From: Nitrosarchaeum sp.
GTDB taxonomy: Archaea > Thermoproteota > Nitrososphaeria > Nitrososphaerales > Nitrosopumilaceae
Direction of reading: 5' to 3'
DNA length: 64,000 nucleotides
Assembly (NCBI GenBank): GCA_003569705.1
Contig: BGOU01000007.1
Location: 62,001 to 126,000, forward strand
The notes under the pieces were generated by a model, which saw nothing but the letters and a program-made list of their open reading frames with translations, did no database searches and was not told the origin of the DNA. The position numbers were made by a program, and so were the translations under genes. Shown here piece by piece: positions 2,518 to 27,182 of the stretch (the stretch's first letter is position 1; the number at the start of each line of letters is the position of its first letter).

Positions 2518-3971
2518 TTGAATTCTAGTTTGAGTAAAGAAGACATTGGAATTACAGTTTCAAAAGAGGCAGACTTTAGTGAATGGTATACTCAAGTTGT
2601 ACTAAAAGCAAAACTGGCAGATTATGCACCAGTAAAAGGCCTGATAGTATTAAGGCCTGAGGGATACTCAATTTGGGAATCATTGAGAAACACTTTTGAT
2701 GAAAAATTTTCTAAAAATGGGATCAGAAATGGATTTCTTCCAATTTTAATTCCAGAGTCACTTTTAGGAAAAGAGCAAAAACATTTTGCAGGATTTAATC
2801 CAGAAGTGTTCTGGGTAACACATTCCGGAGAAAATGAATTGGGAGATAGGCTCGCACTTAGACCAACTTCAGAAACTTTGGCATATACGATGTATTCTAA
2901 ATGGATACAAAGTTGGAGAGATTTGCCATTAAAGATTAATTTTTGGAATACAGCGTTAAGAGCAGAGATAAAAGCTACAAAACCATTTATCAGAACTTCA
3001 GAATTTCTATGGCAAGAAGGTCACACAGTTCATGCAGTTCAAGAAGAGGCAGAAAAAGAAGTAATAAAGATTTTAGAAATTTACAAAAATACAGTTGAAG
3101 ATGAATTGGCCATTCCAGTAGTTACAGGTAAAAAAAGTGAAAAAGAAAAATTTGTAGGAGCGGTATATACAACAACTATGGAAGCAATAATGCCAGATGG
3201 AAAGCTCTCCAAATGGGAACATCTCATTTTCTTGGGCAGAATTTCTCAGTACCATTTGAAGTAAAATTTACAGACAAAGACAATATCGAGCAATTTGCTT
3301 GGCAAACTTCATGGGGAGTATCATGGAGGTTAATTGGTGCCATGATTATGGTACATGGTGATGATAAAGGTCTTGTACTTCCACCAAAAGTAGCACCAAT
3401 TCAAGTAGTGATAGTTCCAATTTACAAATCAGATGAGGCCAAAGAAATAGTACTTCCAAAATTAAATGAGATTCGCGAACAATTAGAATCAAAAAAAATC
3501 AGAGTTCATGTAGATGACAGAAGCGAGTTAACGCCAGGTTACAAATTCAATGATTGGGAGCTAAAAGGAATCCCATTAAGAATTGAGATCGGACCAAAAG
3601 ATATAGAAAAACAACAAGTCATTTTAGCAAAAAGATACAATCGAGAAAAAATAAGCGTAGGATTTAGCGAGATTGAAAAAATAATCACAATATTAGATGA
3701 GATACAAAAAGACATGCTAAAAATTGCAAGAGTAAAAGCCAGTGAAAATACAATAAATATTTCAAACTATACAGAGTTCAAATCAAAAATAGGAGGGGGG
3801 GGTTTTTTCAATGCATATTGGTGTGGCAAAATAGAATGTGAGGAAAAAATCAAAGAAGAGACAGGTGCAGACATCAGAGTGATTCCGTTTGGTAGTGAAA
3901 ATATAGATGGAAAATGTATTTACTGCCAAGAGCAAAGTATTGCAACTCCAATATTTGCAAGAGGGTATTAA
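2518..3971 (+). CDS. proS: Prolyl-tRNA synthetase, archaeal type (apparent frameshift)
   Basis: A class II aminoacyl-tRNA synthetase that charges tRNA-Pro. The first segment, from a TTG at 2518, contains RPTSETLAYTMYSKWIQS (motif 2 region) and FIRTSEFLWQEGHT. The second contains WQTSWGVSWRLIGAMIMVHG (motif 3), an anticodon-binding domain and a Cys-containing C-terminus (CIYCQE). As read, the frame breaks after MPDGK. One extra A in the AAA at 3201-3203 would give PDGKALQMGTSHFLGQNFS, the conserved family sequence, and a 484-residue enzyme of normal archaeal length. Because this is an essential gene, a sequencing indel is much the likeliest cause. The stop is 3 bases before egtB, so the two are probably co-transcribed. 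A tRNA-Pro lies at 55 kb. Confidence 0.95.
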
Positions 3972-20216: not shown

Positions 20217-21014
20217 ATGTTGTTGCCAATTTTTGCAATGTTGATATTGCTAATTTCAACAAATCATGCTTTTGGGATGAGTTATGATGTTGTATATAAT
20301 GAGTATAGACCAGGTGGAAGTTTGACACAATATCATGACATGAGACAATTGAACTTTATTGTGTTAGATGTTGAAAAAATTTTCATACCAAAGTGGATTG
20401 ATGAGCCGGGAGATTATTCAGATATTTTAAAAATAAAATTCAATGTAACAAATAATGGACTAAAAAATTTTTCAATATACAAAAACATGTTTCAGATAAA
20501 CGTGGTAGATCCACATCAAGAGTTTAAAGAAGTGAGGCGAATCAATCAGGACTATATGGTAGATAATTACGATCCTCAATACATTGAAGATTTTAAGCTC
20601 AGATTCCAAGACATTTCATTACCTTCAGAATTATCTGAATGTGTACTACTCAATCACAATCTTAGGATTAATCAAACAAAAACGTTGTCTGTTTGCTTTG
20701 ATGTCAGACAAAAATGGTCTAATGAGCCATTAGATTTGAAAGGACATAGACAATATTACCTTGTCATGATGGATAACAAATTTGCAACATCGTGTCCAAA
20801 CTGCATATCTGTTTTACTAAATGATTATTACCAAAGTCCCATAATGAAAACAAATATTCCACCACATATTCAGATGCATAGTGGAATAGATGCAGAAAAA
20901 ATCTCTTGTAAAGAAAGATTTGTGTTGATCTTCAAATTAGAGAAACCTGCATGTGTAAAGCCTACCACAGCAAAAATTCTTGAAAGTCGTGGATGGACTA
21001 GAATTAATCCATGA
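20217..21014 (+). CDS. Secreted protein with C-terminal CVK...GW module
   Basis: A 265-residue exported protein. The signal peptide is residues 1-20 (ending near NHAFG). The middle resembles an Ig-like or DUF4352-like beta domain (ILKIKFNVTNNGLKNF). The C-terminus has the pattern CKERFVLIFKLEKPACVKP followed by LESRGW. A related module occurs inside the giant repeat protein encoded convergently next door (CAEGHDLLIR, CVKTEHVSKF, QSGW). It is probably anchored or displayed at the cell surface; the role is unknown. Confidence 0.65.
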   Translation: MLLPIFAMLILLISTNHAFGMSYDVVYNEYRPGGSLTQYHDMRQLNFIVLDVEKIFIPKWIDEPGDYSDILKIKFNVTNNGLKNFSIYKNMFQINVVDPHQEFKEVRRINQDYMVDNYDPQYIEDFKLRFQDISLPSELSECVLLNHNLRINQTKTLSVCFDVRQKWSNEPLDLKGHRQYYLVMMDNKFATSCPNCISVLLNDYYQSPIMKTNIPPHIQMHSGIDAEKISCKERFVLIFKLEKPACVKPTTAKILESRGWTRINP

Positions 21015-21083
21015 TGAAATGTGACAGTTTAGATAAACAGAGATCACAATTAACACATATTCACAGTGTCATAGTGAAATATT

Positions 21084-24000
21084 TTATGAGTTAATTGTTA
21101 ATCCGGCACAGCTAAAAATTGACTTGTCTTTAAATTCGGATTGCCATTTTTGGTGCATTTTGTATGTAAATAACGAATCATCATAATAAGTTACAAAATT
21201 ATCAATTTCACATTCTCTGTATTTCCAAGTCTGCAAAACATCTCCCTTTCCATCATTTACCTCTATGATGACATTAAATAATTCAGGTTTTGCCCCAGCG
21301 TTAACATATCTACTTGCAAGTTCATAGTACCAAGACTTGTCTTTGCTTGGGAGGGATTCCAGATAGAATGCCTTTGCAGAAGAATCAAGTGGAGTTGAAG
21401 GGCGCAGTACAGCAGAGTTTTCATCCGCAATTGGCACAAATTTTGAAAATGTTTTAACAGTTTGTGCTGGTGTAATGTCAGTTCCCTCAAAAGTTATAGT
21501 AAATGAAGCAGCTCGCTCATCATTTGTTGGAAGAATAGTTTGTAGTACATCACTCGCGTTTCTCTTCTCTCTTTCTGAAGGTTTTATCCAACCACTTTGC
21601 TCGAATTTTGATACATGTTCAGTTTTTACACAGAGAGGGACATTTTTTGGAGGTCTGATTAGCAGGTCGTGTCCTTCAGCGCACACTACACCTTCTGATG
21701 GAATACCAACTGCTCTTTGAATCATTGGTGAGATTTTTTTAAGATTTCCAGTAGGATAAAACAGTGGATCTTTCTGCGGAGATGTCTTGAAAGATTCTCC
21801 AGCACAATCCAGAATTGACTGTCCACGAATTTCTGGCTTTAATCCTGGAACATAGCGAATTATCACCATACCGTCATTGTAATAGAGTGCCGAATCATCA
21901 ACATTGCAATCTGCATAAACAACAGAATACAAAATAGTTCCATCACCAGTTACAGTATCAATTCTCACATCAATTAGCTCGGGTGTTTTTCCAGGATTCA
22001 AGTATCTGCTTATGAAGTCATATGCGTCTTTGTGCTGAGCATTTGGAAGGCCGCCTAAAGATATGTTTGAATCACTATGAGTTTCAACTTCTTGTACTAG
22101 GGCGCTAGTTCTTTCATTTTGAAGCTCACCACCATACAAGCTAACGATATTTAGCGTCGCCATGTCATACAGAGATGGGACTGTCACAATATCTTGTTGG
22201 ATGTTTGATTTACGTTGATCAAAATCTACAGAAAAACCATTGCATTGAAATGTTGAAACATCAACAATATCAGATATACCTTTTCTTCCACTAAGTGAAA
22301 AAGAAAGTAGACTATCTGCAGATTTCAAATCAAAGTTTTTGAGATCACAATCAGCATAATTCCAAGACTGTAATACAGTGCCATCACCGCTTACATAATC
22401 AAATGCAACATCAAATGGTTGTGGCTTAGCACCTGGATTGATGAATTTACTGACGACCAGATCATAGTACGGCATCTTGTCTTTGCTTGGCAATGAAGTT
22501 ATTGTAAATTCAGTTGATTTGACATAATCATTTCGTTGCATGGTAGAGAGATATGGTTTTGAAACAAGCGCAATAGAAGATGAACCCGGAACACCTGGTT
22601 CTTCTGGGACTACTGGTGGTTCAGTTATACAATCTGTATCTTCACAACCTACTGGTGGTTCTTCTGGATCTACTGGGGGTTCTTCTGGATCTATTGGTGG
22701 TGTATCTGGACAATGAGGATTATTTGGAGGACATGGTTTGCATCCTGGAGGAGATTCTCCAGGGGCACAATAATCAGGAGGAGATCCAAACGTAGCAGGA
22801 CTTGCGCCCCCACCGGATTCAGTATTAGATATTATTGTCGTGCTAAACTTGACTAATTGCACGCTGGTCTCACTTCTCTGATCAACTTTTGGCGTAAATT
22901 TACCAATAGTGTAAATTTTCAGAGGTTCTGTAAAGTCCCCTCCTGAAAATGTAGTGACAATATTTTTAATTCTAGAATTACTAGATGGAATAAAATCTAC
23001 AGAATAAAGTGATTTTTCAGGTGTTTTTTCTGCAACAAAAGAAGTTCCATCAAATGACAAACCAGTGCATTGGAATATTGTCCTGTCACGATATTCAGGA
23101 TGTGATGTGTCAGTGAATTTTTGTAAAATCAGTGTGTCAGAATAAAATGTTTTGTACAACAACACTTGGCAATCAGAGTATTTCCAGTTTTGAAGTGTGG
23201 TTGCATCCCCAGTCATTACAGATATAGTCACCTGAAATGGTTCAGGTACTTTTCCTGCATTGATGTATTTACTCATTAACTGATAATACCATTGATTGTC
23301 CTTGCCAGGAAGAGAGTCCAAATAGAATTTTGGCTCATCGCCAAATGGTGCATTTGGAATCATCAATTGTATTTCTTCATGAGTGACTGGTCCAAATTTT
23401 GAAAACGAGGTGATGGTTTTTGCTGGCGCAATATCTGCACCCTCAAAATGAACCGAAAAAACCATAGCACGTGATGAGTCATCAGGAACATATGCATAAC
23501 CAGTCTTTAATTCTTTGAGATTCACATCTGGATTGAACAGCAAACCATTGCATTCAAAAAATGTTTTTTCTCGTATCTCCGAACCTGCTTTTTGTATAAA
23601 TTTGTAAACCAAACTATTATCTGTAAAAAATGTGGCATAGTTGTAAGCTTTGCAATCTGTGTATTTCCAGGTCTGCAGCACATTGTTTGCTCCAGTTATT
23701 AGATAAATTGTTGCATCAAATGGTTCCGGTGCTTTTCCAGGATTGACATATCGACTAATTTGTTGATAGTAAGGTTGTTTGTCTTTTGTCGGATTTGCCT
23801 CTAGTGCAAATCTTGGTTTTTCTCCAATAACATTTCCTGGAATTGAAATTGGAAAGTTAGGATTTTTTGAGATTGGGACAAACTTTGAAAAAGAGTCAAA
23901 AGATGTGACATTTCGAAATTCTCCTCCGGAAAATTGTGCTAGTATTCTATCTGCCCTGTTTTCTTTACTTGGCAATATTGGAACAGTCAGTGAGTCTAAT

Positions 24001-24748
24001 TTTCTAATCGATTCTTTAAGAACAAAATCTTGTGTGAAACCAGTACAGCTAAAAACAGTTTTGTCTCTTATTTCAGAAGATAAAGAGCCATCAAATTTGA
24101 CTTTGAATAGATTTTCATCCAGATACGGGGTATACGAATTGATTACACACTTCTGATATTGCCAGAGTTGTAGTGTGGAGCCATCACCAGTTAAAACTTT
24201 AATGTCAATGTCAAATGGTTCTGGTTTTTTTCCAGGATTGATTGATAGTTTAACTAGATTTTCATAAAATAATTTTTTGTCATCGCTTGGAAGTGATTCA
24301 AGTTCCAACCCATATGATATGCCGTTATAATTGAATGGGATGGGAGTACGAATATTCTTGTCAATATGTGTAAATTTTGAAAAAGTATTGAAGGTTTGTT
24401 TTGTTTTAATATCACCGTTAAAAAATCCACAGTAAATGCCATTGCACGATTATTGTCATCTACAATTACTTTTTGTTGGTAGTTTTTTGATTGTTCAGTA
24501 TAAGCTTGGGATATTTCTTTGATAGAAGATTCGTCAGTAGTTTTTCCATGTACCAGATAGGGATTCAGCGGTCTATCAAAATATTTCAGTATTTCAATAC
24601 CAAGTCCTCCCTCAGAGAAATAATATGGATTAGATTCAACTAGATGAACCCCTATTGGTACTTGCTCTTCGGCAAAGATAAAATTAGTAGTCAGAAATGT
24701 AATTAATGTTAAAAAACTTAGCAATACAATCGAATACTTCAATAACAA
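21084..24748 (-). CDS. Large secreted protein with six long repeats (apparent frameshift)
   Basis: Signal peptide in residues 1-26 (ending near NFIFAEE). The corrected protein has 1221 residues and six copies of a module of about 90 residues within a repeat period of roughly 150-190. Each module has a variant of LESLPSKDK, then Y..PGKxPEPFDV, VTGDGTxLQxWKY, Cys, and RDKTxFxCxGL; two Cys per copy could form a disulfide. Spacers often read FSKFxPI. A Pro/Cys-rich linker (about 22.56-22.80 kb) divides the protein, and a CVK...GW module precedes the last repeat. As read, the frame breaks at VDFLTV; one extra A in the run at 24420-24425 would restore VDFFNGDIKTK. It is likely a cell-surface or matrix protein. 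No C-terminal membrane anchor was seen. Confidence 0.75.
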
Positions 24749-25038: not shown

Positions 25039-25751
25039 TTGTATTCCAGAATAAGAATTAAAGAATTAAGACCCATTAATTTGGAAGGGGGATATCTCAT
25101 AGATGGATTTCCTTCAGTGGGATTTACCAGCGCAATTGCAACAGAATCAATGATACAAACATCGCAATTTAGTTTAGCAGGAATAATTGATTCAGATAGT
25201 TTCCCACCAATTAGTTTGATTAAAGAGGGTAAACCAAATTATCCAACACGTATTTTTGTAAACGATGATCTTAAAGTTTCAGTTTTTTGTCTTACCTTAC
25301 TCTTCATGAATCATTACATAGAGTTGTTGCAAAGGCAATGCTTAGTTGGGCAAAAAAACAAAAAATAGAACTAATTGTAAGCAGCATGGCAGTAAAATCC
25401 CTAGATGGTCTTGAAGGAATAGTTGCAGTGGGAAACACAGATTCTGCAAGAACAAAATTAAAAGAATCAGGATTAAAAGTCCTAGAATATGGAACAATTC
25501 CAGGAATACCAGGGATGTTACTTAATGAAGGAAGCATGACAAACCAAGATGTAATTGTAATTCTTTTTCATTCAGATGGTACTGGTCCAGATTTTAGATC
25601 AAGTGCAGAGTTGTGTTTGGGAATGTCACAATTAATTCCTGGTACATCTTGCGATATTCCACTTTTACAAAAAGAGGCAGCAAAAGCAGAGCAATCAATT
25701 AAAGAAACAGATGAAGAGTCACGGCAGTTAAAAGATTCTATTTACAGATAA
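25039..25751 (+). CDS. Proteasome assembly chaperone (PAC2) family protein (apparent frameshift)
   Basis: An archaeal PAC2-family protein (COG2047). The N-terminal half carries YLIDGFPSVGFTSAIATES; the C-terminal half carries SSMAVKSLDGLEG, YGTIPGIPGMLL and PGTSCDIPLLQKEA. As read, the frame breaks in VSVF. One extra T in the run at 25283-25288 would give VSVFLSYLTLHESLH and a continuous 237-residue protein. The start is TTG at 25039; the nearby ATG at 25029 is out of frame. Family members in eukaryotes help assemble the 20S proteasome; the archaeal role is less clear. Confidence 0.85.
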
Positions 25752-26426: not shown

Positions 26427-26665
26427 CCGCAATCTAAAATTTCAACTTCTGGTTTACAATTAGCATCAAATAAATTAATTTTTTCAACTAAAACGTCGCA
26501 AAATTCAGGATCAAGTGATTTTTCATATGATTTTAAATCAGCCATAATTGCAATATGTTGTATCACACAAGAATATACTGTAAATCCAAGAATTATTCCA
26601 ACAATAAAAATACATACAGAGATGAGAATTAAATTTCTAATGGTTTTAGTTTTTTGTAATGTCAA
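26423..26665 (-). CDS. Small single-span membrane protein
   Basis: An 80-residue protein with one hydrophobic segment (about 11-33) and a short Cys-containing domain outside it (SLDPEFCDVLVEKI, then two more Cys at the C-terminus). It starts at a TTG inside the last codons of the upstream alba gene (20-base overlap), which suggests co-expression. I recognise no family. Confidence 0.5.
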   Translation of the reverse strand: MTLQKTKTIRNLILISVCIFIVGIILGFTVYSCVIQHIAIMADLKSYEKSLDPEFCDVLVEKINLFDANCKPEVEILDCG

Positions 26666-27182
26666 TTTCTATTGTAGAGACATTACGTAGTTTACCGTCT
26701 TGAGATGTAAGCGAATCAGATAAAATTCTAACATCACTGACGACATATCCAACAGTGTTCATTCTTTTAACAATCATTTGAGATACATCAACTGCCTGAG
26801 TAATTCTTTGACCTCTGGCCTTAATTGTAACGGTGTGTCTTGTTGAAAGTTGTGTTAAAGTAGCTGCAACATATGTCAATATCGGTTTAGTACCAACAAA
26901 AATCACATCACGGTCTTCAAGATCAGGTTTAGTTTCAGTTGAGGGTTCACTAACAGGTGGAGATAATTGTGGTTCTGATTCAGGTGGAGATAATTGTGGT
27001 TCTGATTCAGGTGGAGATAATTGTGGTTCTGATTCAGGTGGAGATAATTGTGGTTCTGATTCAGGTGGAGATAATTGTGGTTCTGATTCAGGTGGAGATA
27101 ATTGTGGTTCTGACGATACATCGGCATCATGAAATTCAGATAAAATATCTTCTGCGTCTTTAGATTTTTTGGGGTCGCTCAA
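26646..27182 (-). CDS. Alba-type DNA/RNA-binding protein with a repeat-rich N-terminal extension
   Basis: The last 86 or so residues are an Alba domain: VIFVGTKPILTYVAATLTQL, then TIKARGQRITQAVDVSQMIV. Alba is a nucleic-acid-binding chromatin protein of archaea, normally about 90-100 residues. Here about 90 residues precede it, including six tandem nine-residue units of SEPQLSPPE type encoded by a 27-bp DNA repeat. The extension is acidic and Pro-rich, so it is likely disordered and may tune DNA bridging or partner binding (inference). The 80-residue membrane gene overlaps its end. Confidence 0.88.
   Translation of the reverse strand: MSDPKKSKDAEDILSEFHDADVSSEPQLSPPESEPQLSPPESEPQLSPPESEPQLSPPESEPQLSPPESEPQLSPPVSEPSTETKPDLEDRDVIFVGTKPILTYVAATLTQLSTRHTVTIKARGQRITQAVDVSQMIVKRMNTVGYVVSDVRILSDSLTSQDGKLRNVSTIEIDITKN
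26954..27115. repeat. 27-bp tandem repeat, six copies (minisatellite in the alba gene)
   Basis: Six head-to-tail copies begin at 26954, 26981, 27008, 27035, 27062 and 27089. They are identical as read except for the last two bases of the sixth. Each is 27 bases, so copy-number changes keep the reading frame of the Alba N-terminal extension. The identity of the copies points to recent expansion. Confidence 0.97.

Follow-up and report, generated by a model that had tools for sequence, protein, structure and literature searches.

A Secreted Six-Repeat Protein of Nitrosopumilaceae with a Predicted Tail-Tube Fold and a Candidate Single-Chain Ring

Introduction

What is a secreted archaeal protein built of six long, cysteine-bearing repeats, and why does it carry six? 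The question is raised by a large gene in a 64,000-nucleotide stretch of Nitrosarchaeum sp. DNA (GenBank assembly GCA_003569705.1, contig BGOU01000007.1), hereafter the window, which corresponds to positions 62001-126000 of contig C7 in a genome of 1.46 Mb (10 contigs, 97% complete, GC 33%). Positions below are those of the window, and loci of relatives are cited by number (L061 and so on). The gene runs on the minus strand from 24748 down to 21084, is split over two frames, and faces a smaller gene for a second secreted protein. The analysis described here indicates that the repeats have the fold of phage tail-tube proteins, and it gives a narrow preference, with a probability of roughly 55%, to the reading that the large protein is a secreted six-domain ring acting as a surface scaffold or channel for ester hydrolases.

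Fold of the Repeats

A preliminary description, made from the letters of the DNA alone, had assigned six repeats with two cysteines each to the large protein, and both observations hold. The repeats (R1-R6) are ~140 residues long, and a profile built from all six recovers each of them in its own protein at 137-204 bits; a weak seventh hit, at 1.2 bits, is accounted for by repeat 4, in which a Pro/Cys-rich insert parts the matched N-terminal half from the second. R1-R5 are 27-43% identical to R6. Both cysteines are present in 99 of 101 aligned repeats and are invariant across a wider set of 50 domains, a conservation suggesting that the pair probably forms a disulfide in each repeat.

The alignment of 101 repeats, all drawn from the window and related loci, was used to model repeat 6 with AlphaFold2. 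The model (predicted local distance difference test, pLDDT, 89.3; predicted template modeling score, pTM, 0.83) runs through strands (E) and a helix (H) as E E E E H E E E E, which is the β-barrel with one helix of the tail-tube superfamily. Foldseek comparison with the PDB returned nine matches at E ≤ 0.001, all of them injection-system or Hcp chains and headed by the antifeeding prophage (AFP) baseplate chain 6rao_F (E 4.6e-5), and the best 50 rows consisted entirely of tail-tube, Hcp, or phage/injection-system tail and neck chains. VIA-align was run on the top 1000 Foldseek chains; 998 were aligned and 142 of these gave Z ≥ 8, the best again being 6rao_F (Z 13.5, 3.2 Å over 124 residues), with 6j0n_n (Z 13.1), Hcp1 6bdc (Z 11.7), and lambda V 7t4f (Z 9.6) among the others. 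Structure comparison with a viral library likewise matched many named tail-tube proteins. On the strength of these models it is near certain that the repeat has the phage tail-tube/Hcp fold, known from tailed phages, type VI secretion systems, and injection systems. The preliminary description had named a match of the repeats to a known domain as grounds for its own refutation, and at the level of fold such a match exists.

Domain Number and Distribution

Tube domains were counted with an iterated profile, several records of one gene being counted once; genes disturbed by contig ends, N runs, or broken frames (L062, L072, L073, L075, L078, L120, L121, L122) and fragments in L123, L047, and L053 were left out. 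Thirteen long homologues could be read from end to end (the window, L061, L063-L071, L074, and L076). Every one has six repeats, a number fixed in this set, and carries a module of another kind, WING-49 (NCBIfam NF058652), between R5 and R6. Eight complete relatives have three tube domains (L052/L021, L077, L079, L036, L037, L038, L045, and L048) and 20 have one (L003, L022-L035, L042-L044, L046, and L126), while two, four, or five domains were found in none of the complete relatives examined.

In a tree of the individual domains, repeat 6 groups with repeat 3, and the three-domain proteins of L036, L038, L045, and L048 fall into a clade with single domains from the pstS side (support 1.0), apart from the six-repeat clade. 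Because these two clades are separate, the tree places the origin of triplication in at least two events. The pstS side refers to loci L003, L043, and L044, in which pstS and a phoU-like gene flank the gene of a single-domain secreted tube protein. The same phoU-like gene recurs in L045 next to a three-domain form, which there seems to replace the one-domain form. The single-domain gene of L003 (1300-2031, minus strand) corresponds to about 232436-233167 on contig C7 of the window genome.

Two further features were seen among the single-domain proteins. Those of L031, L032, L033, and L042 share a C-terminal tail (..GTEGELFYNS..LQKFVNGEW..) that may resemble a trimerizing or fiber end, and those of L022, L026, L028, L030, and L126 have a W[IV]KN.AK[WY]W-like segment ahead of the tube domain.

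The six-repeat profile found matches in 20 of 300 genomes of the phylum, all within the family of the window, and the profile of 101 repeats detected the tube domain in 88 of 200 genomes of that family. Among named relatives of the large protein, the close ones come from Nitrosopumilus and Nitrosarchaeum metagenome-assembled genomes and a more distant one from Nitrosotalea bavarica, which points to an ammonia-oxidizing member of the Nitrosopumilaceae as host.

A Candidate Six-Domain Ring

The mature part of the intact relative L068 (1091 residues, 13 sequences) was modeled in full with pLDDT 75.6 and pTM 0.68. Foldseek matched it best to tail-tube and tail-tip proteins of several domains, namely those of T5 (9iny_A, E 1.4e-5), DT57C (8hqz_p), SH-Ab15497 (8xan_A), and P74-26 (8ed0_A). 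VIA-align places the tail protein 8xan_A on residues 407-716, that is domains 3 and 4 (240 residues, 3.9 Å, Z 13.1), and 8ed0_A on residues 242-550, domains 2 and 3 (257 residues, 4.3 Å), the latter at Z 7.8, in a range below 8 where the score may reflect a common arrangement only. The T5 study (PMC5717097) describes the tube protein pb6 as a product of duplication and fusion whose trimer is pseudo-hexameric. Because neighboring domains of the archaeal protein superpose on fused-dimer tubes that build pseudo-hexameric rings, we infer that its six fused domains close one ring, domain 1 meeting domain 6; judged from these models, the large protein is probably a single-chain pseudo-hexameric ring. 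One chain would then be equivalent to six subunits of the phage tubes or Hcp and to three of T5 pb6; three-domain relatives would pair, and one-domain relatives would assemble in sixes.

The alternative that fares best is that the tail-tube-fold domains are beads on a string, forming a long surface stalk or adhesin with no ring. Tandem repeats with two cysteines are common in surface stalks, and the low-pLDDT linkers and the long Pro/Cys-rich insert in window repeat 4 fit such an arrangement. Stalks usually vary in repeat number, whereas six is found throughout the long homologues, and the pTM obtained over 1091 residues and the placement of neighboring domains as in fused-dimer tail tubes also speak against a string. 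We regard the stalk as unlikely, though it has a real share of the probability.

The WING-49 Module and the Small Gene

The preliminary description had presented the large and the small gene as a convergent pair whose secreted products share a C..CVK..GW module. Much of this is supported: the genes are convergent, with the small one on the plus strand, both products have signal-like starts (a hydrophobic stretch in the small protein), and the shared module is WING-49, scoring 62.2 bits in the small and 40.1 bits in the large protein against a cut-off of 22. It ends the small protein, as C..CVKP..GW, and precedes the last repeat of the large one, as described. What does not survive is the pairing itself. 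In 31 loci of relatives (L049-L079), the small protein is matched through its module alone and never as an adjoining gene; its body has no match around the relatives of the large gene, and the protein as a whole has no Pfam match at E ≤ 1. Since the module is spread over many secreted proteins of the family, it defines no gene pair, and with neighbor conservation also lacking, a special relationship between the two genes was rejected. The idea that a last repeat was added after an ancestral end likewise found no specific support, given the constant position of the module and the grouping of repeat 6 with repeat 3. The claim that the family is undescribed fails for the module, which NCBIfam holds, and stands for the repeat, which reaches no Pfam or NCBIfam cut-off.

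When 300 genomes of the phylum were scanned with a profile of 13 module copies, 42 had matches, 41 of these being members of the window's family; the window genome holds nine matches, and the highest count elsewhere is at least 24. The fetched loci contain 64 distinct copies, 14 of which lie in frames cut by the locus end; 37 of the remaining 50 are in proteins without a tube domain (18 C-terminal, 10 near the N-terminus, and 9 internal). WING-49 is thus a widely used component of the secreted proteins of this archaeal lineage. No paper naming it was found in the literature searched.

Neighboring Hydrolases and Proposed Role

A gene was visible on the 5' side of the tube gene in 17 loci, the window included. 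It is a PF00884 sulfatase in six (L061, L065, L067, L070, L079, and L121), with one small open reading frame (ORF) in between in L067 and L070, and a metallo-β-lactamase (MBL)-fold hydrolase of the GntH/PNGM-1 kind in four (L071, L075, L076, and L077), accompanied in L077 by an alkylsulfatase. These sulfatases and MBL-fold hydrolases are secreted, and in several of the upstream enzymes the signal peptide is followed by a WING-49-like stretch, in some cases scoring below the curated cut-off. Chance is a poor reason for six sulfatase neighbors among 17 loci because, of 61 family genomes, just 8 have a PF00884 match (14 such matches above the cut-off), although the 17 loci share ancestry and hence are not independent. 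The MBL-fold neighbors are not claimed as sulfatases, their best matches being GntH in NCBIfam and PNGM-1 in the PDB. Clusters of secreted alkylsulfatase, sulfatase, MBL-fold, and haloacid dehalogenase (HAD) hydrolases were also observed around tube proteins in L077/L124, L123, and L079, several of them with WING-49-like stretches.

These neighbors suggest a role for the ring. WING-49 would tether it either to the cell surface or to enzymes acting as partners, which in the relatives would be secreted sulfatases and MBL-fold hydrolases, often with a similar module. Outside the cell, the ring would serve as a scaffold or channel for breaking down sulfate (or phosphate) esters. We offer the scaffolding of ester hydrolases at the surface as a supported guess, tentative as it is.

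The tube proteins might instead be accessory subunits or inhibitors of the secreted sulfatases and MBL-fold hydrolases, binding to the enzymes or their substrates but building neither ring nor tube. The gene linkage (10 of the 17 loci) and the WING-49-like stretches on both gene products would be expected of such partners, but tube proteins occur without PF00884 sulfatases in many genomes, that of the window included, single-domain members sit at the pstS/phoU-like locus instead, and the numbers one, three, and six are left unexplained, so that we consider this quite improbable. Least credible of all is that the proteins belong to a phage tail or contractile injection system, active or domesticated, and form a real tube. 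The fold does match injection-system and phage tubes, but the proteins have secretion signals, the sheath family PF04984 is lacking in all seven genomes carrying tube proteins in which it was sought, no tail genes were seen among the neighbors (genome-wide, the sheath was sought but not baseplate or tape-measure families), and no relative appeared in four viral-contig scans or in 50,697 phage records; a virus part is very unlikely.

Returning to the secreted ring, several results weigh against it. In sequence, the repeats resemble tail-tube families weakly: hits to PHROG 4542 (tail tube) came from 10 of 101 repeats (best E 7e-4) and from 5 of the 50 wider-set domains (best E 1.9e-4, ~34 residues in the member shown), PF06841 (Phage_T4_gp19) stays below its cut-off in the window protein (12.3 versus 28.2 bits), and PDB sequence searches with the repeats gave nothing credible. 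A set of 25 repeats gave one PF06841 match, at E 0.022, and none of 10 selected proteins matched the tail-tube family. The L068 model has weak linkers and an overall pLDDT of 75.6. The numbers one, three, and six rest on few independent events. Seven of the 17 loci (the window, L052, L066, L068, L069, L074, and L120) have no upstream sulfatase or MBL-fold hydrolase, and the window genome has no PF00884 match at all, so a link to the enzymes cannot account for the function in full. In its most complete form, the proposal is that ammonia-oxidizing archaea employ the tail-tube domain in a secreted ring scaffold independent of any virus or injection machine, that six-fold symmetry sets the domain number per chain at one, three, or six, and that the six-domain chain, a whole ring in itself, organizes sulfate- and phosphate-ester breakdown at the cell surface through WING-49; this form is a doubtful one.

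Gene Layout and Frame Break

The coordinates of the features are collected in Table 1. The repeat-bearing frame spans 21084-24308 (minus strand), with 1074 residues from the first TTG and 1121 from stop to stop, and the signal-peptide-like start lies in a different frame, 24254-24748 (minus strand); in intact relatives this N-terminal part is in frame with the repeats. The nearest relative, L061, is 84% identical to the window protein in repeat 6, and its gene is intact. Two unrelated genes of the window are split as well: prolyl-tRNA synthetase (ProRS), in overlapping ORFs at 2518-3264 and 3213-3971 (plus strand) that match the core and the anticodon-binding/C-terminal parts of one enzyme, and PAC2, in overlapping ORFs at 25039-25368 and 25287-25751 (plus strand) that match successive parts of one Pfam family. 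Because L061 is intact and both these genes are broken in the same window, the one-base frameshift in the large gene is probably an assembly indel, and a programmed frameshift is not favored.

Farther along, an Alba-domain protein is encoded at 26646-27182 (minus strand); its N-terminal part holds near-identical SEPQLSPPE repeats.

Table 1. Positions of the large and small genes' features in the window
Feature	Position	Strand	Basis or remark
Small secreted protein, 265 residues, C-terminal WING-49, body without known domain	20217..21014	+	ORF and NCBIfam
WING-49 module (C..CVK..GW) of small protein	20862..20999	+	NCBIfam
Tail-tube-fold repeat 6	21087..21515	-	Predicted structure, pLDDT 89.3, pTM 0.83
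WING-49 module of large protein, between repeats 5 and 6	21582..21728	-	NCBIfam
Tail-tube-fold repeat 5	21783..22166	-	Repeat profile
Tail-tube-fold repeat 4, Pro/Cys-rich insert between halves	22221..22976	-	Repeat profile
Tail-tube-fold repeat 3	23046..23474	-	Repeat profile
Tail-tube-fold repeat 2	23529..23951	-	Repeat profile
Tail-tube-fold repeat 1	24024..24422	-	Repeat profile
T6 tract, site of frame break in large gene	24420..24425	-	Nearest relative L061 one base longer
Large protein N-terminal part	24426..24748	-	Signal-like hydrophobic start and conserved mature N-terminus (..NPYYFSEGG..NPYLVHGKTT..), other frame than repeats

Comparison with Known Systems

These results place a tail-tube fold in secreted proteins of ammonia-oxidizing archaea in which no tail machinery was found, and they supply a predicted fold for many proteins that no curated model covers. 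No account of a secreted tail-tube protein in Nitrosopumilus was found in the literature searched. The archaea in question are better known for ammonia oxidation; the hydrolase neighbors hint at the use of sulfate esters. The ring reading, moreover, predicts quaternary structure from repeat number.

Both WING-49 modules of the window are ordinary members of NF058652, with no difference found. With the tail-tube, Hcp, and injection-system tubes (6rao_F, 6j0n_n, 6bdc, 7t4f), the archaeal repeat shares the fold, including the single helix between strands, at VIA Z 9.3-13.5 over ~88-124 residues among the best 50 rows. Unlike those proteins, the archaeal protein has a signal peptide and two conserved cysteines, with no other tail genes seen; identity to the tail-tube and Hcp chains is ~4-15% in the VIA rows, and no curated sequence model is reached.

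Further parallels are the tubes of T5 (pb6), P74-26, and SH-Ab15497, which likewise have more than one tube domain per chain, with adjacent domains placed alike. For P74-26 and SH-Ab15497, two domains per chain are suggested by the two-domain match, and both, like pb6, are virion parts. A 2021 review (PMC8718954) names phiCbK as the one other source from which fused trimeric tubes of this kind were known. The T5 study states two tube domains per chain for pb6, as against three or six in the archaeal proteins, and exactly six fused tube domains, if they do close as proposed, would make a natural single-chain ring, a step beyond the two-domain fusion of T5 pb6 (PMC5717097).

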